A stretch of 30,188 nucleotides of DNA from Treponema sp. (GTDB lineage Bacteria; Spirochaetota; Spirochaetia; Treponematales; Treponemataceae). Location of the stretch: assembly GCA_003455655.1 (NCBI GenBank), contig DMQP01000024.1:1-30188 (forward strand). Reading direction: 5' to 3'. Positions 22,240 through 29,752 of the stretch are shown here, in pieces. A program made the position numbers and the translations under genes. A model generated the notes under the pieces. It was not told where the DNA came from and ran no database searches. It saw nothing but the letters and a program-made list of their open reading frames with translations. Within the stretch, counting starts at the first letter, position 1. Every line of letters begins with the position of its first letter.

Positions 22240-22268
22240 ATTATAAGACAGAAGCGTCTGTTGCGCAA
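22240..22268 (-). promoter_or_regulatory. Promoter inside the 3' end of clpC for the phosphoribosyltransferase gene
   Basis: Minus strand: TTGCGC (22268-22263), 17-base spacer, TATAAT (22245-22240), the best -10 in the window. The start site would be near 22233, 14 bases before the ATG. The spacer holds ACAGACGCTTCTGT, an almost perfect palindrome centred in it. The promoter overlaps the last clpC codons and stop. Confidence 0.7.
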
Positions 22269-24808
22269 TCTGTCTGTTTCTTTTTTGAACTTGAACTGTT
22301 ACGAGCTCTTGTTTTTTTGAAACTTACATCAATGTGATTGTCTGTAAAATCTACCACAACAGAATTACTGCTTCCGCGTTTTCCGCTCAGAATAAGTGTT
22401 GCAAGTCTATCTTCTACTTCGCGCTGAATTAAACGTCTCATAGGGCGAGCACCCATTGCAGGTTCATAACCGTGGTCAATAAGATAGTCTCTCGCTTTTG
22501 CTTTAACCGTAAGCGAAAGATTTTGTTCTGCAAGGCGACCTTCCAATTCTGAAAGCTGAATATCGAGAATCGCCTTAACCTGCTCACGAGTAAGTGCATT
22601 AAAGACAACAACATCATCAATACGATTTAAAAGTTCTGGAGACATAATGCGCTTTAATTCTTCCATGGCACTTGCTTTTATTTCATCATAAGGAAGCACT
22701 CCATCGCGAACGGTTGAAAATCCCATGCGGCCGTCTGCCATAATGTTTCGAGCACCAGCATTACTGGTCATAATAAGCAGTGTGTTTCTAAAGCTAACAG
22801 TGTGTCCCAGATTGTCTGAAAGTTCTCCTTCTTCAAGTGTTTGTAACAAAAGATTAAAGACATCAAGATGAGCTTTTTCAATTTCGTCCAAAAGAACAAC
22901 TGAATACGGATGCTGGCGAACAGCTTCGGTAAGCACACCACCCTCTTCATATCCAACGTATCCTGGAGGAGCACCAACCAAACGAGAAGCATTGTATTTT
23001 TCCATATAGTCACTCATGTCTATACGAATCAAAGCATCTTCTGTTCCAAACAAAAATTTTGCAAGAGCTTTTGCAAGTTGTGTTTTACCAACACCAGTCG
23101 GACCCAAAAATATAAATGAACCAAGTGGCCGCTTAAGTGAAGATACACCAGCCCGACTTCTGCGAACAGCACCACTTATAAGACGAATTGCCTCATCTTG
23201 TCCAATAACATCTTTATGAAGTTCTGCTTCCATGTTGACTAAGCGAGTCGATTCTCCATCGTCTAATTGTTCAACAGGAATACTGGTTGTAGAACTTATA
23301 ATTGCACACACATCTTCTTTGGTAACATGAGGTCGCATTGAAGTTTCGTTGTTTTTCCAGAACAAACTAAATTCATCAAGACGACGGCGAAGTTCAACAA
23401 CTTTATCGCGAACAAAGGCAGCCTTTTCATAATCTTGTTCTGCAACAAGACGTTTCTTTTCTTCGGTAAGTGCCTCAATAGAATGTTCTAGTTCTTCAAG
23501 TTCAGAAGGACGAGCTTCTTCTTGAATTTTTTTTGCAGCACCTACTTCATCAAGAATGTCTATTGCTTTGTCGGGTAGACAGCGTTCGGAAATGTAACGC
23601 TCAGAATACATAACAATTGATTCTATAACGCCATCATCATAAATAACATGATGATAATCTTCGTAACGACCTTTTAGTCCACGCAATATATTTTCAGTAT
23701 CTTTTTGAGTTGGTTCGTCTACGGTAACTTTTTGGAATCGTCTGGTTAAGGCACTGTCGCGTTCCAAATACTTGCGGTATTCTTTTGTCGTTGTTGCACC
23801 AATGACTTGAATTTCTCCACGGCTTAATGCAGGTTTCATAATGTTACTTGCATCCATAGAACCTTCAGGGCCACCAGCGCCAATAACGGTATGAAGTTCA
23901 TCAATAAAAAGAATGACGTCGTTAGCTTCTTTTACTTCCTTCATCATTTTTTTCATGCGCTCTTCAAATTCACCACGATACTTTGTTCCTGCAATCATAG
24001 CAGCAAGGTCAAGCGTAAGAACTCTTTTTTTCAAAAGATCTCGGGGAACTGTTCCCTTTACAATATGCTGAGCAAGACCTTCAACAATTGCCGTTTTTCC
24101 AACTCCTGGTTCACCGACCAAGACAGGATTATTTTTTGTTCTGCGACTTAAGATTTGAATAACGCGAGCAATTTCTACTTCACGTCCCACAACAGGATCT
24201 GAAATTCCGTTACGAGCAACATCTGTTAAGTCACGAGTAAACTGTGCAAGAATTCCTTGTTTCATGCGAGAACGAGACTGAGAAGAACCGTCAGACATAA
24301 GAGGTTCAGAATTATGGAAGAGTGCATCAGCAGCTGCTTTCATTCCGTCTGCTCTTGCTGAAGAAGGAATTTTTCGTTCTATTTCTACAACCGTTTGACG
24401 AGCTTGGGCAAGAGTTATTTCTGCTTTTTCAAAATAACGTGACAAAAGAGAATTTTCTTCGCGGATGGCAGCAAGCAAAATATGTTCAGTTCCTACATAC
24501 GAAACATGTAAAGACCGAGCTTCAACTGCTGCAACATCAAGCAAATTCTGCATTCTTTGAGAAAGTGGTATTTCTGAAGCAACTGGTAAGGGAACACGAG
24601 CAGGCAAACTTTGTTCAATAGCAAGCTGCATAGTAAGCACATTAATTCGCAGTGCCTTTAGAGTAAGGTAACCCAATCCATCACCACTACGCAACATGGC
24701 AAGCATGACATGTTCAGGCAAGAGATGGTCGCTTCCAAATTTATATGCTTCATCCTGTGCAAGTGCAATAATGAGCCGCTGTGCACGCGGTGAAAGATTC
24801 TTCATCAT
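22241..24808 (-). CDS. clpC: AAA+ unfoldase ClpC
   Basis: 855 aa from ATG 24808, six bases after GGGAG; a start 30 bases further up lies inside mcsB and lacks a site. The N-domain has two repeats (about 1-145), keeping Glu32 (LLPEH) and the GTEH glutamate of repeat two, which in Bacillus bind phospho-arginine. AAA1 has Walker A GEPGVGKT (232-239) and Walker B VILFIDE. A UVR-containing middle region lies near 445-480. AAA2 has GPTGVGKT (569-576) and VVLLDE. The MGF loop (695-697) is the ClpP-docking tripeptide. It unfolds proteins for ClpP. The tail is a Ser/Lys-rich stretch. It follows mcsA-mcsB, one base after the mcsB stop. No clpP is in the window. Confidence 0.95.
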   Translation of the reverse strand: MMKNLSPRAQRLIIALAQDEAYKFGSDHLLPEHVMLAMLRSGDGLGYLTLKALRINVLTMQLAIEQSLPARVPLPVASEIPLSQRMQNLLDVAAVEARSLHVSYVGTEHILLAAIREENSLLSRYFEKAEITLAQARQTVVEIERKIPSSARADGMKAAADALFHNSEPLMSDGSSQSRSRMKQGILAQFTRDLTDVARNGISDPVVGREVEIARVIQILSRRTKNNPVLVGEPGVGKTAIVEGLAQHIVKGTVPRDLLKKRVLTLDLAAMIAGTKYRGEFEERMKKMMKEVKEANDVILFIDELHTVIGAGGPEGSMDASNIMKPALSRGEIQVIGATTTKEYRKYLERDSALTRRFQKVTVDEPTQKDTENILRGLKGRYEDYHHVIYDDGVIESIVMYSERYISERCLPDKAIDILDEVGAAKKIQEEARPSELEELEHSIEALTEEKKRLVAEQDYEKAAFVRDKVVELRRRLDEFSLFWKNNETSMRPHVTKEDVCAIISSTTSIPVEQLDDGESTRLVNMEAELHKDVIGQDEAIRLISGAVRRSRAGVSSLKRPLGSFIFLGPTGVGKTQLAKALAKFLFGTEDALIRIDMSDYMEKYNASRLVGAPPGYVGYEEGGVLTEAVRQHPYSVVLLDEIEKAHLDVFNLLLQTLEEGELSDNLGHTVSFRNTLLIMTSNAGARNIMADGRMGFSTVRDGVLPYDEIKASAMEELKRIMSPELLNRIDDVVVFNALTREQVKAILDIQLSELEGRLAEQNLSLTVKAKARDYLIDHGYEPAMGARPMRRLIQREVEDRLATLILSGKRGSSNSVVVDFTDNHIDVSFKKTRARNSSSSKKKQTDCATDASVL

Positions 24809-24809
24809 A

Positions 24810-25886
24810 TTATTCTCCCGTAACAGAAATTGCTTCAAAGGCTTCTTGAACTATTAACGCTCTGAGTCGCTCTTTTTTTTGTTGCATATTCTGTGCGATA
24901 TCTTCTTCAAAATGAAAGTCACCGTTTTTAAGAACAAACTCTAAGTGTCCATCTTGCATTCTGTACAAAAGCGCATGAACAACACTGTCGTCAACACCAG
25001 AAAGCAGTTTTGTATCAAGACCAAACTGAACACCACTAATTAAAGAAATTGCTTCTCTTAACTCAAGCAGTTTGCTGTATTTGCAAAGGGCAAGAGAGCG
25101 GTAAACCTGATTACGAACTTGAGTCTGTGCTGATTCCATGCACTGTTTACGAGCAAGTCGTTCTTGTTCTGTAAGTTGTTGAATTGCCGCAGTAAGAGAT
25201 GCAACTTGATCAAACTCACTGCCAGACAAACTGTTAAGCGATGAAACTTGGTAGAAAGAACCCAAAGATGAACCTTTAGCACCCAGTCCATAGGTTGCAG
25301 TAAAAGTAAAACCTTTTTTAGAAAGACTTTCTCCAGCTGAACCAATTTTTCCTAAAAGCGAAAGAGATGGAAGATGAAGGCGAACAGAAAGTTTCATTCC
25401 ACTTCCTGCGTCAAACAGAGAAGATGTTAAATAACCAAAGTCATAACTTGCTGCAAACTGAACACTCTTTTGGAGAGAGGCATCAACATAGCGTCCTGCA
25501 GAAAGAGCAGCATCAAAATCTAAGCCTGTGGAAAAAGAAGAAATGCGCACATGATCAACATCATTTACCGTACAAGAAACTTTTCCGTCTGAACGCATAA
25601 CAACGCCACTGTACTTTCCGTCACGAGAAGCGTCTAAAACTCCGCGCTCAACAAGAATTTCTTTTCCAACTGCATCTAACTGTTGTACCGAAATTGCTTG
25701 ATACGATTCGCTATCTTCAAAATGATTAAAAGCATCAAAGACAATAGCTTGGATTCGTTCGCTATCTGAAGCTCTCAGTCTAGCAGGAAAAGGAAAGTTT
25801 GCAAGGTTACGGGCAAAACGAACACGAGAAGAAAGCACTACATCATTGTCTTTACCAGGAACAGCATACCATGCGTCAGAGTTCAT
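24810..25886 (-). CDS. mcsB: McsB-like protein with a degenerate arginine-kinase active site
   Basis: 358 aa, the normal McsB length, aligned end to end by eye: VVLSSRVRFARNL (16-28), FGYLTSS (150-156), LHLPSLSLL, GSFYQVSS, then a C-terminal domain. The family adds phosphate to protein arginines and, as McsA partner, targets proteins to ClpC. Here the substrate and ATP loops are lost: NEEDH is NDVDH (108-112), so the catalytic Glu is Val110; the family CPTN-x-GTGxR is SLFDAGSGMK (156-165), losing Cys, Thr, Asn and Arg; and RGxYGEG becomes TYGLGAK (198-204), losing the second catalytic Glu and an Arg. The C-terminal ERDIRRA sensor is EEDIAQN. It is open and overlaps mcsA by four bases. I infer a pseudokinase adaptor rather than an active kinase. 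Confidence 0.85.
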   Translation of the reverse strand: MNSDAWYAVPGKDNDVVLSSRVRFARNLANFPFPARLRASDSERIQAIVFDAFNHFEDSESYQAISVQQLDAVGKEILVERGVLDASRDGKYSGVVMRSDGKVSCTVNDVDHVRISSFSTGLDFDAALSAGRYVDASLQKSVQFAASYDFGYLTSSLFDAGSGMKLSVRLHLPSLSLLGKIGSAGESLSKKGFTFTATYGLGAKGSSLGSFYQVSSLNSLSGSEFDQVASLTAAIQQLTEQERLARKQCMESAQTQVRNQVYRSLALCKYSKLLELREAISLISGVQFGLDTKLLSGVDDSVVHALLYRMQDGHLEFVLKNGDFHFEEDIAQNMQQKKERLRALIVQEAFEAISVTGE

Positions 25887-26404
25887 GAATTCTGTTCTCC
25901 TTCTGACACGGGAGTTTTTTCTAATGCACGCAGATAATCGCGATAGAGTGCTGCTTTTTCGTAATCTTCATTTTTGATTGCATCGTTTAATTTGTTTTGC
26001 AAAGCAATGCGATCGTTTAACACTGAACGGAAGGAAGCTAGCCGAGTGGGCATAGTTCCTGTGTAAGTTCCGCGCACACCTTTTACATCAAGATAGTGCT
26101 GAATGTTGTCTTTGAAAATAGCATAACACTCTGGGCAACCAGCCTTTGCTGTCTGCTTTATTTCAAGCAGTGTTGTTCCGCACACAGGACACATACGAGC
26201 GTTTTCTTCTTCTATATGTTTTGCCTTTTCTGACAATTCTTTAAACAACTGACCAATTGAGGATTCTATACTCTTTGGATCCGGGCTTATTCCGTGTTCG
26301 ATGGCACATTCCATACACAAGTTGATCTTACGCTTTTGACCGTTAGGTGCAACCTGTTCCAAATAAATCACCGGTTCTCTTTCATGACAAAAATCACAAA
26401 CCAT
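25883..26404 (-). CDS. mcsA: McsA-like zinc-finger and UVR protein, McsB/ClpC partner
   Basis: 173 aa. Two zinc sites: Cys3, Cys6, Cys30, Cys33 and Cys72, Cys75, Cys90, Cys93 (CPVCG and CPECY). A UVR domain at about 125-163 (LNDAIKNEDYEKAALYRDYL) is the kind that contacts ClpC. In Bacillus McsA activates McsB and couples it to ClpC. Here it comes first in mcsA-mcsB-clpC; the repressor gene ctsR, usually first in Firmicutes, is absent, and lolC-type DNA precedes. No Shine-Dalgarno; the start follows a promoter by 6 bases. All cysteines are kept, so the protein looks functional even though its partner is altered. Confidence 0.9.
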   Translation of the reverse strand: MVCDFCHEREPVIYLEQVAPNGQKRKINLCMECAIEHGISPDPKSIESSIGQLFKELSEKAKHIEEENARMCPVCGTTLLEIKQTAKAGCPECYAIFKDNIQHYLDVKGVRGTYTGTMPTRLASFRSVLNDRIALQNKLNDAIKNEDYEKAALYRDYLRALEKTPVSEGEQNS

Positions 26405-26410
26405 ATTTCT

Positions 26411-26439
26411 ATTCTACCGTATTTTTACATTTTACGCAA
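26411..26439 (-). promoter_or_regulatory. Promoter of mcsA-mcsB-clpC giving a probable leaderless transcript
   Basis: Minus strand: TTGCGT (26439-26434), 17-base spacer, TAGAAT (26416-26411), then 6 bases to the mcsA ATG at 26404. The -35 lies in the last codons of the lolC-like gene. No CtsR-type GGTCAAA heptads and no Shine-Dalgarno are visible. Confidence 0.6.
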
Positions 26440-27777
26440 AGTGTCTATAGGCTTTTCCCTACCCGCCCGTATGGCAGGAACCGTAGAAGCTAGAAGCGAA
26501 AGTAAAAGTGTTCCCACGGCAATTACCAGTAATTCTGTACAGGGAATAGTAACAGGAATGTTTTGAAGATAATAGGCTGGGTCTAAAAGATGTATTTCTG
26601 AAGCTACTGTTGCTTCTCCTGTTAACAAAGTGTTTAACATAAGCTGGAGTGCATTAACCGTTTTTTCCATCCAAGCAATAATGCGGTTAATGTTAACGGC
26701 AGCAAGTAAGCCTAAGGGAATACCAACAAGCACTCCTCCAGAACCGGCTGCAAATCCTGCTACAAGGAAAGAAAGCGACACTTCGGCCTTTGTACTGCCT
26801 AAACTTTTTAAAATTGCAATTTCTTTTTTTCGTTCCATTACCAGCATAATGAGTGCAGAACTAATGTTTATGCTTGCTACCAAAACAATTAAAAGCATTA
26901 TTAAAAGCAAAAGAACTTTTGTTGAAGCAAAGTTTTCGTATTGGGCTGAGTTCAATTCATTCCACAAATACACTGCAGCACTTTCTACAAAACTGCCACC
27001 GCCGGTGCCATATAAATCTTGCTGAACTCTATAGGCAATAGTTGCTATGTCTGGAGAAAAAGAATCTTCGGTTACCAAAGCAATTGAATACTGAGATGAA
27101 CTAGAAGGTAAAATAGAAAAACCAAGAGAAAGCGGAACGAATACCCACAAAGCATCCAGCTCCTGATATCCGCAAGAAACAATTCCACTTACGGTAAGCA
27201 CAGTAACTTTAGGAAGCACTCTACTTGACTGTTCATCGCCCACCGTATTTATAGTGATTAGACGAATACTGTCTCCTGCGTGAAGGCCCAAATCGTTTGC
27301 CAGTTTGGAACCAATGACAGCACTACGGGAACGAGAAAGACTTGCCTCTCCTTCTACAACTTCAAACAATGTTTTAAAGCGAATGTTTTTTTCAAACACA
27401 TCTTCGGGAACAGCACGAACAGTTGCACCAGAACGAGAAGAATCTCCTACAGCTAAAGCGGTTCCTTGAACTTCGGGAACAGAAGCAACAACGCCTTCAA
27501 CTTGCAGCAATCTGTCTGACAGTTCTTGAAATGAAGATGCAGAAGCACAAAAACTTTCATCAGAAGAAAGCGAAACAGAAATATCTTGTGAAGAAAGACC
27601 TATAATGCGACCTGTAATGCCAGAGATCATTCCGTCACTAATCGAAAGCACTGCAACAAGAGGAACAAGACTAATTGCAATACACACAACCGCACCAACA
27701 AGGGTTCTTTTTCCGTGACTGGCATTTTTTTCGAACAAAAGTTTTTTTGCATACAGGAGGCTCGACTTTACATTCAT
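26425..27777 (-). CDS. LolC/LolE-type lipoprotein-releasing permease (first of two)
   Basis: 450 aa. FtsX-like permease with four membrane segments: one N-terminal (about 28-48, LVGAVVCIAISLVPLVAVLS), a large periplasmic domain (about 50-285), and three near the C-terminus (about 287-312, 330-360, 410-435). The cytoplasmic loop ERKKEIAILKSLGSTKAEV is the family signature that contacts the ATPase. With the other permease and LolD it forms the complex that extracts lipoproteins from the inner membrane. GGAGG lies inside the lolD end, and the gap is 3 bases. Which partner is LolC or LolE cannot be told by eye. Confidence 0.88.
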   Translation of the reverse strand: MNVKSSLLYAKKLLFEKNASHGKRTLVGAVVCIAISLVPLVAVLSISDGMISGITGRIIGLSSQDISVSLSSDESFCASASSFQELSDRLLQVEGVVASVPEVQGTALAVGDSSRSGATVRAVPEDVFEKNIRFKTLFEVVEGEASLSRSRSAVIGSKLANDLGLHAGDSIRLITINTVGDEQSSRVLPKVTVLTVSGIVSCGYQELDALWVFVPLSLGFSILPSSSSQYSIALVTEDSFSPDIATIAYRVQQDLYGTGGGSFVESAAVYLWNELNSAQYENFASTKVLLLLIMLLIVLVASINISSALIMLVMERKKEIAILKSLGSTKAEVSLSFLVAGFAAGSGGVLVGIPLGLLAAVNINRIIAWMEKTVNALQLMLNTLLTGEATVASEIHLLDPAYYLQNIPVTIPCTELLVIAVGTLLLSLLASTVPAIRAGREKPIDTLRKM

Positions 27778-27780
27778 GAG

Positions 27781-28464
27781 CTACAGTTCCTCCAAAGCAC
27801 CCTGACTTATGGTGTAACACACATCACCTTTAGAAGCAAGTTTCATATCATGAGTTACCAGAATAAGCGTTTTTTTGTAACGTTCTGCCATAGAAAACAA
27901 AAGGTCTCCTATAAGCAAAGCATTTGCAGGATCCAAATTACCTGTTGGTTCATCAGCAAGAATAACAGTTGGATCATTTATAAGACTTCGGGCAACTGCA
28001 ACACGCTGACGCTCTCCACCAGAAAGCTGAGACGGTAAATGTGTTTCGCGGTCAGACAAACCCACATCAGCTAACAACTGCCGTGCTTTTTCCATTGCAT
28101 CTTTTTTAGAAAGCCCTGACATATATGCAGGAAAAAAAACATTTTCCAAAGCAGTAAAATCTTTAAGCAAGTAATGAAATTGAAAAATGAGCCCCAAATG
28201 TTTTTTCCTGTAAAGCGCAAGTTCATCTTCAGAAAGAGAAGAAATGCACTGCCCTGCGACGGTAACACTTCCTGATGTTGCAAGATCGAGTCCGCCAATT
28301 ATGTTAAGCAATGTTGACTTTCCACTTCCGCTTGAACCAACAATAACACACTTTGCACCAGTGTCAACTTTCATGGAAAGATTTTTCAAAATAGTAAGCG
28401 ATTCACTGCGAGTCTTATACGTTTTTTCAAGTCCAGAAACAATAACCGATCCATCATTCATCAT
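27781..28464 (-). CDS. lolD: Lipoprotein-releasing ABC transporter ATPase LolD
   Basis: 227 aa from ATG 28464, which has GGAGG 6 bases upstream; a TTG 15 bases further up has no site. Walker A GSSGSGKST (43-51), a Q-loop reading FQFHYLLKDFTALENV (very close to LolD), signature LSGGERQR, Walker B VILADEPTGNLD and H-loop VTHD are complete. It powers lipoprotein extraction by the two flanking permeases. Overlaps the upstream permease gene by 11 bases. Confidence 0.93.
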   Translation of the reverse strand: MMNDGSVIVSGLEKTYKTRSESLTILKNLSMKVDTGAKCVIVGSSGSGKSTLLNIIGGLDLATSGSVTVAGQCISSLSEDELALYRKKHLGLIFQFHYLLKDFTALENVFFPAYMSGLSKKDAMEKARQLLADVGLSDRETHLPSQLSGGERQRVAVARSLINDPTVILADEPTGNLDPANALLIGDLLFSMAERYKKTLILVTHDMKLASKGDVCYTISQGALEEL

Positions 28465-29752
28465 GCAAAACCTCCACAACTGTCAGTTTAAGAACATCAC
28501 GACCAGCCAAGGCTGCGGCAAAAAGCGCTGACAGTAAACCAAATAAAAATACCGCAAGTACTTCACCAGGGAAGATTCGTGCGGGAATACTTGCATAAAT
28601 TGCATACATAGGATTCTCTGTTAAGAATGTTGCATTTTGAGGAGCAAGAAGATTCATAAACACGAGTGTAAAAAAGTATTGGAGTTTCGAAAGTAAATAA
28701 AAAACTGACTTCATGTTAATACACACAAAAAGTCCTAACACTACTCCTAAAAAAGCACCCGTAAAGCCCATCAAAAAACCTTTCATCATAAAAACAGAAA
28801 GAATTTCTTTTTTTAGTGCGCCCAGTGCAGACATAACCGCTATTTCTTCTCGGCGTTCGTAGACCATGCGCTTCATACCGTTATAAATGTTTATTGCAAC
28901 AACAATAAAAATCAAAAAGACTAAAAGCATGAGCATGTTTTTTTCAACACGCAAAGCTCCAAAGAATGTACGGTTGTAACTTCTCCAACTTTCAGCAGTA
29001 AGATGGGGAAAGGCTTTATTTAAACGCTGAACAAAAAGAGCATCTGCATTTGATTCAGAAAGTTTTATACCAAGCGTTACCGCCTGACCTTCGCCCATTG
29101 TGTTTTTTCCTGCTTCCATACCAATAAAGGCATACGTTGCATTAATGTCTGCATATTCACAACGGAAGGTTCCTGTTACGGTAAAGACTCTATCCTGCGA
29201 AAATAAACTTGTATCTGACGAACCGCTCATTGCAAGAATAGTCACTTCATCTCCTACACGAAGAGAAAGTTGTCTTGCAAGAGTTGAACCTAAAACAATA
29301 CCGTTACCACTTACATCGAACATACCAGACTGAATGTCTATTTCACGAGAAAGACCAGCATCTTGACTAAGCACATCAGTAGGCAGGGCTCTTACTAAAG
29401 CAGCTCGCTGTCTGGAAAAACGACCAACAAACAAAGCTTGCGCTTCCATAAACGGATAAGACGAAATAACAGAAGAATCTTCTTCGCACCAGTTAAGCAC
29501 AGGGACTATTTGTTCTTGAGAAAGATTGTTTATTCGTACATGGTAAGAAGATATTTCCATTATGGCATCTTTGAACCCCATTTGAAATCCATTCATAACA
29601 CTAAGAACAACAATCAAAACCATAACGCCTAGACAAATTCCCAAAGAAGCCAACAGTGTTGTTACAAAAGAGCGTCCTTCTTTTTCAACCGAAGAAAATT
29701 TTCGTGAAGTAAAAAAAATCCATCTGAGCGATGCAGCTATATCAGTCTTCAA
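28454..29752 (-). CDS. LolC/LolE-type lipoprotein-releasing permease (second of two), TTG start
   Basis: 432 aa. Same layout as its partner: membrane segment about 31-52 (TLLASLGICLGVMVLIVVLS), the MNGFQ motif after it as in LolC/E, a periplasmic domain, then three C-terminal segments around ERREEIAVMSALGA. It starts at TTG 29752: an in-frame TGA is directly upstream, no usable ATG lies before the first membrane segment, and GGAGG is 9 bases away. It overlaps the upstream YD-like gene by 11 bases, as lolD overlaps it. Translation of the set appears coupled. Confidence 0.88.
   Translation of the reverse strand: MKTDIAASLRWIFFTSRKFSSVEKEGRSFVTTLLASLGICLGVMVLIVVLSVMNGFQMGFKDAIMEISSYHVRINNLSQEQIVPVLNWCEEDSSVISSYPFMEAQALFVGRFSRQRAALVRALPTDVLSQDAGLSREIDIQSGMFDVSGNGIVLGSTLARQLSLRVGDEVTILAMSGSSDTSLFSQDRVFTVTGTFRCEYADINATYAFIGMEAGKNTMGEGQAVTLGIKLSESNADALFVQRLNKAFPHLTAESWRSYNRTFFGALRVEKNMLMLLVFLIFIVVAINIYNGMKRMVYERREEIAVMSALGALKKEILSVFMMKGFLMGFTGAFLGVVLGLFVCINMKSVFYLLSKLQYFFTLVFMNLLAPQNATFLTENPMYAIYASIPARIFPGEVLAVFLFGLLSALFAAALAGRDVLKLTVVEVLHDE

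Follow-up and report, generated by a model that had tools for sequence, protein, structure and literature searches.

What becomes of McsB, the protein arginine kinase that works with McsA and ClpC, when its catalytic residues have been replaced? The question is raised by a 30,188-nucleotide stretch of Treponema sp. DNA (assembly GCA_003455655.1, contig DMQP01000024.1), here called the window, in which an mcsB homologue lies between mcsA and clpC. The original prediction, made from the letters of the stretch, was that this protein keeps the McsB fold and operon and has lost the arginine-kinase active site, perhaps under selection for a non-catalytic role such as that of a ClpC adaptor, or for a different chemistry. 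We find it well supported that the kinase site has been lost while selection maintains the protein for something else. In our judgement the protein is probably a pseudokinase that joins McsA in acting on ClpC and needs no phosphorylation to do so.

The gene in question is the following:

24810..25886, minus strand: McsB homologue with a degenerate active site, an open frame of 358 amino acids

This protein is a McsB homologue by descent. It scores 225 and 215 bits against the NCBIfam McsB models, below both equivalog cut-offs (385 and 500), and matches the McsB structure 6fh1 in the Protein Data Bank (PDB) with an E value of 1.6e-47. Structural superposition onto McsB gives a confident McsB fold, with the aligned range ending at model residue 354 and McsB residue 354. 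In full-length sequence and in fold, the protein resembles McsB more than it does other guanidino kinases. Phosphagen (arginine and creatine) kinases align only over model residues ~10-250, and unlike them the window protein has an extra C-terminal McsB domain and a lost active site. A tree built with active-site columns masked places spirochaete McsB next to canonical McsB, and the order mcsA-mcsB-clpC is kept.

Within this family background, the active site is largely replaced. We number its residues as in arginine kinase (AK), paired with window residues through alignments; two of the AK numbers, C271 and E314, are also found in the names of mutant structure entries. The relevant positions, from the N-terminus onwards, are these:

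25818..25826, minus strand: R21 and R23, retained nucleotide-phosphate arginines (SSRVR)
25572..25574, minus strand: C105, a cysteine fixed in treponemes
25557..25559, minus strand: V110, replacing the catalytic Glu of NEEDH (McsB E121)
25545..25547, minus strand: R114, retained arginine (AK R229 equivalent)
25419..25421, minus strand: S156, replacing the catalytic Cys (CPTN to SLFD)
25392..25394, minus strand: K165, replacing the AK R280 equivalent
25299..25301, minus strand: T196, replacing the AK R309 equivalent
25284..25286, minus strand: L201, replacing the second catalytic Glu (McsB E212)

Both catalytic glutamates are thus gone (E225 is V110 and E314 is L201), as is the cysteine (C271 is S156), and only three of the five arginines that contact nucleotide phosphates remain, R124, R126 and R229 corresponding to R21, R23 and R114. 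The original prediction had correctly identified Val110, the SLFD context, Lys165 and the surviving first arginines of SSRVRFAR; it had placed the second glutamate at Ala203 and another loop arginine at Thr198, each two residues away from the true counterparts, Leu201 and Thr196. The protein therefore differs in both glutamates, the cysteine and two phosphate arginines from the McsB kinases of Bacillus, Geobacillus and Staphylococcus (PDB 6fh1-6fh3, 6tv6, 8gqd, 8wtb, 8wtc). A review describes Cys157 of S. aureus McsB as catalytically essential (PMC12467219). Three residues ahead of the N of the former NEEDH motif, C105 is Cys in 119 of 119 treponeme sequences and mostly Ile in 29 canonical-like rows.

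The C-terminal phosphoarginine (pArg) receptor has fared differently from what was first proposed. In McsB this receptor consists of R337, D338 and R341 (PMC8370763). Its better-supported counterpart, and a nearby insertion typical of treponemes and absent from the McsB kinases listed above, are located as follows:

24861..24875, minus strand: K338, E339 and R342, counterpart of receptor residues R337, D338 and R341
24900..24917, minus strand: FxFExD, residues 324-329, within the treponeme-typical insertion

The claim that the sensor is lost, ERDIRRA having become EEDIAQN, is mostly wrong. A single-sequence phmmer alignment does yield that pairing, but multiple alignment and structural superposition disagree with it and set KKERLRA opposite the receptor residues, so we regard the pairing as a misalignment. 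Of 120 matches to the treponeme query, all 120 have Arg at the R341 position (R342 in the window), 80 have Glu at that of D338, and 97 have Ile, Asn, Val or Thr at that of R337. With K338, E339 and R342, the receptor in the window protein appears to be partly kept. A pattern of the FxFExDI form near the C-terminus occurs in 116 of these 120 matches versus 4 of 120 canonical sequences.

Loss of the kinase site is clade-wide in treponemes, and Brachyspira and other spirochaetes have lost it too. One scan gave 64 loci, all titled Treponema or another spirochaete name, which with the query make 65 sequences; the frame of one (L046) ends ahead of the active site, leaving 64 with data. E225, C271 and E314 are all lost in 61 of these 64. 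A catalytic Glu survives in the other three (L041, L050 and L053); none of the 64 has the Cys. The extracted L046 frame is only 117 amino acids long, though its tblastn match spans residues 4-353; a frame break or an assembly error is possible.

A phylum-wide search shows that the active sites of spirochaete McsB proteins range by degrees from intact to wholly lost. A McsB match is present in 241 of 392 spirochaete genomes, and is the only one in 236 of those 241. At residue level, 180 of the 241 matches were read: 114 have lost all three catalytic residues, 32 keep E225 and the Cys, and six retain all ten scored residues (L076, L099 and four rows of a fused lineage described below, L227, L229, L248 and L249). 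A fifth fused row, L246, has the three catalytic residues and lacks the aligned N-terminal residues. In the clade containing most of L070-L100, NEEDH and the Cys are mostly kept while E314 is often Asp, Gln, Asn or another residue; this clade is caught midway in the loss of the site.

Genomes are called treponeme here by tree position, whereas the Brachyspira label derives from source names, which a few of the matches to a Brachyspira-clade query (73 listed, 72 used) bear. In these 72 matches, the five arginine positions are mostly Lys, Ser, Glu, Asn and Ser, E225 is mostly Asn, the Cys is mostly Ser, and 61 have a gap where E314 would align; five more distant matches keep all ten residues. 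McsB proteins encoded at Brachyspira-type loci such as L132, L137 and L148 lack the second Glu and have substitutions at most or all five phosphate-arginine positions. As a control, 119 of the 120 best matches of the intact spirochaete McsB L076, which come from several phyla, keep all ten residues, and both glutamates are kept in 120 of 120 versus 0 of 120 for the treponeme query, a comparison biased towards intact sites because the control was found with an intact query.

A second, intact McsB was sought as well. The closest genome examined, G001, has a single guanidino-kinase match and hence no second copy among the matches. The guanidino-kinase searches of treponeme genomes used only the McsB and PF00217 models, and in the genome searches for McsB, PF00217 and CtsR a B. 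subtilis control gave no match, although B. subtilis carries genes of all three kinds; absences in these searches are therefore not firm.

Trees, made by a quick method without bootstrapping, suggest how the site was lost. The first used 129 rows, thinned from a set cleared of 18 rows that were short or off-family, including the fused kinases. For the second, in which active-site columns were masked, we removed 15 long-branch rows and then thinned the named treponeme rows still present by about half. In the masked tree, spirochaete McsB forms one group beside canonical McsB with a support of 92 (not starred), and an intact spirochaete lineage, together with a small degenerate clade, stands apart from the other spirochaete McsB proteins. 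Support for the treponeme clade is 99-100 in both trees. The fewest changes between kept and lost states are six for the Cys, 11-12 for E314, 16 for E225 and eight for the combined state, and the active site was therefore probably lost more than once in spirochaetes.

Selection on the gene is nonetheless maintained. The ratio of nonsynonymous to synonymous substitution rates (dN/dS) between the window and the 93% identical L001 is 0.040 for mcsB, 0.019 for mcsA and 0.060 for clpC, values that are only approximate because dS is high (1.26 for mcsB and 1.89 for mcsA). Other close mcsB pairs with a finite estimate range from 0.033 to 0.162, and three pairs gave none. Among the 64 named mcsB loci, early termination is seen in only one, and two run off the ends of contigs.

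We also compared ranks of variability over 334 alignment columns between canonical McsB and treponeme proteins. The two glutamates and the cysteine have a mean rank of 0.04 in canonical McsB and of 0.75 in treponemes, an increase equalled in 0 of 20000 random column draws. Among the treponeme-query matches, position 110 is one of the most variable (about the 93rd percentile), and the positions of the Cys, R309 and E314 are above the median. Constraint has moved in the other direction in a loop that contacts the McsA zinc finger in S. aureus McsB (Y147-Y153; PMC12467219):

25431..25451, minus strand: residues 146-152, equivalent of the S. aureus McsB Y147-Y153 McsA-contact loop

Here the mean rank falls from 0.45 to 0.20 (392 of 20000 random draws do as much); of 328 contiguous windows, 25 drop as much and ten match its conservation. 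In treponemes the seven-residue window with the least variation, 143-149, overlaps this loop. At the oligomer contact formed by R262 and E277 in S. aureus, the equivalents R263 and E278 show 99% and 95% conservation. Of a second such contact, F261 is replaced by Tyr in 64%, and R271 shows no conservation.

The partners of McsB are likewise retained:

25883..26404, minus strand: mcsA, the activator and partner of McsB, with eight zinc-ligand cysteines kept
22241..24838, minus strand: clpC, an AAA+ unfoldase, listed with a TTG start

The mcsB and mcsA frames share 4 bases, in agreement with the full-length open frame and overlap noted at the outset. For clpC, an internal ATG near 24808 suits the ClpC N-terminus better than the listed TTG; the Walker A and B motifs are both in place, as is an MGF tripeptide similar to the ClpP loop. 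McsA adjoins mcsB in 170 of 185 loci and ClpC does so in 143; at Brachyspira-type loci mcsA is still adjacent and clpC is not. Each of the eight McsA zinc cysteines is present in 114 or more of the 121 sequences that make up the largest group, with similar or higher values in other groups. Strong ClpP matches occur in 29 of 30 genomes, G041 having a weak match only. Each of 22 treponeme-clade genomes has two strong ClpP matches, and Brachyspira-type and other genomes have one.

The anchor pair of the S. aureus ClpC resting state, K85-D356, is Gln and Gly in window ClpC, and these positions vary across spirochaete ClpC, including in genomes with near-intact McsB. Upstream of mcsA, window positions 26425-29752 hold a permease gene with a LolC/E-family match, followed on the same strand, judged by translation alone, by genes for an ABC ATPase and a second permease, a LolCDE-like set. 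CtsR was matched in none of 80 related genomes, a further apparent difference from McsB kinase systems but a weak test, as only Lactococcus among 14 controls, and not B. subtilis, was matched.

A pArg phosphatase was looked for as well. A P-loop Thr marks the pArg phosphatase YwlE/PtpB and an Ile marks the phosphotyrosine type (PMC8001253). Low-molecular-weight phosphatases were matched in 52 of 80 genomes, and 63 of 67 listed places were read (the unread ones being in G037, G183, G107 and G008, one each); B. subtilis controls were matched in this search and in those for ClpP and MecA. The YwlE-type loop CTGNTCRSPMAE occurs only in G017 (L273) and G041 (L271), which are the two genomes with an intact classical McsB, and none was read in treponeme genomes. 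In the treponeme clade, 14 copies read CHGNICRS, including the single match in G001, which is of the Ile type; a second copy in G193 is divergent, and the G370 loop is CIHNSGRSQM. Two genomes, G191 and G221, carry CVHNTARSQMAE, with Thr at the same place, a loop that we take to be of the arsenate-reductase type.

Coupling between intact kinase and YwlE is a single evolutionary contrast, because it rests on one pair of related genomes, and it is not universal, because of a lineage in which McsA-like and kinase parts are fused:

L246:2774-3796, L248:3774-4790 and L249:3070-4305: fused McsA-like/kinase proteins
L227:1393-2418 and L229:1399-2391: further fused McsA-like/kinase proteins

Their genes adjoin clpC. 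They combine an McsA-like zinc part and a kinase core in one chain, retain catalytic residues (GDEDH or DDEDH; CPTN, CPGN or CPSN; GE) and, judged by length, are without the McsB C-terminal domain. They appear to represent a fused writer. Of 13 genomes chosen to represent this lineage (five sequence-checked), 12 have an Ile-type loop, one of which (G146) also has CTGNTCRSQMAD, and G195 has only CIENSNRSQ. Intact kinases with Ile-type loops weaken any strict coupling.

A pseudokinase reading fits these data because the catalytic site has been freed from constraint while the docking loop and an oligomer contact are constrained and the partners are kept. Of the original proposal, site loss under selection for something else is upheld, and the adaptor role is inferred. 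On this proposal, treponeme McsB would no longer phosphorylate arginine, and would assemble with McsA through the conserved docking loop and with itself through R263 and E278. The complex may bind the ClpC N-terminal region or clients, and could act as an adaptor or regulator of ClpCP that needs no phosphorylation; McsB would then have kept its scaffold function after losing its kinase function. Several observations weigh against it: L050 has both glutamates, without the Cys; the intact control is biased as described; the window protein could still bind nucleotide, since it retains three phosphate arginines and the DH pair; the receptor R341 is kept; and the ClpC pArg-pocket residues E32 and E106 are each kept in 59 of 60 named treponeme loci, as a pArg-based system would predict. 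These pocket residues are also kept in most of every other group examined, and therefore do not separate kinase from pseudokinase genomes; the pockets take part in ClpC resting-state contacts as well (PMC12583610).

The remaining arginines could instead belong to a rewired enzyme that binds nucleotide through R21, R23, R114 and K165 and catalyzes another phospho- or nucleotide-transfer reaction. R21, R23 and R114 are present in 76%, 78% and 80% of the 120 treponeme-query matches, Lys occupies the R280 position in 78%, and treponemes have newly fixed C105 and other residues. However, the phosphate arginines are not invariant, the Brachyspira-query matches have replaced most of them and usually lack the E314 position, and the variability of position 110 and of the Cys, R309 and E314 positions is high. 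We consider this reading, and with it a different chemistry, possible but unlikely; no conserved replacement occupies the catalytic positions. The same arginines, the invariant R342 and the frequent Glu at the D338 position would also suit a non-catalytic sensor of nucleotide or pArg, in which ligand binding switches the complex with McsA and ClpC. This strikes us as rather improbable, given the replaced R337 equivalent and the fact that no pArg writer was identified in treponeme genomes with the two models searched. A low-activity kinase working through other residues, to which the glutamates of L041, L050 and L053 (3 of 64) might point, is distinctly improbable in view of the missing Cys, the loss of all three catalytic residues from the window protein and the lack of a YwlE-type loop among those read in treponeme genomes. 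A decaying gene hitch-hiking in its operon would account for the degenerate site and the short L046 frame, but is rejected by dN/dS and by the scarcity of early-ending frames, and we give it almost no credence.

The proposed pseudokinase would resemble MecA, a non-catalytic adaptor of an unrelated family, in activating ClpC by binding; MecA itself was matched in none of 30 genomes. It would also resemble bacterial pseudoenzymes that keep a fold under selection after losing a catalytic motif, although the pseudokinase families of PMC12599244 are Ser/Thr-kinase-like and the window protein is guanidino-kinase-like. A search of the open literature, mostly by title and start of abstract and with subscription papers and preprints outside its coverage, found no description of a degenerate McsB. 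The label "protein arginine kinase" that a source attaches to certain treponeme proteins appears to be misleading, and "guanido phosphotransferase" may mislead for Brachyspira.

There has been debate on whether McsB itself serves as a ClpC adaptor or acts solely as a pArg writer; Kirstein (2007) and Trentini (2016) are reported to bear on it. A natural, strongly selected, kinase-dead McsB with its own McsA and ClpC makes this question testable with purified proteins. Tentatively, spirochaetes may repeatedly have stripped McsB of its kinase activity and made it a partner of McsA that drives ClpCP with no pArg tag, in which case the scaffold or adaptor function can stand alone and has been kept throughout treponeme history. 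In rumen treponemes and their relatives, the role of this protein built like McsB is probably that of a structural partner or adaptor rather than that of a kinase.
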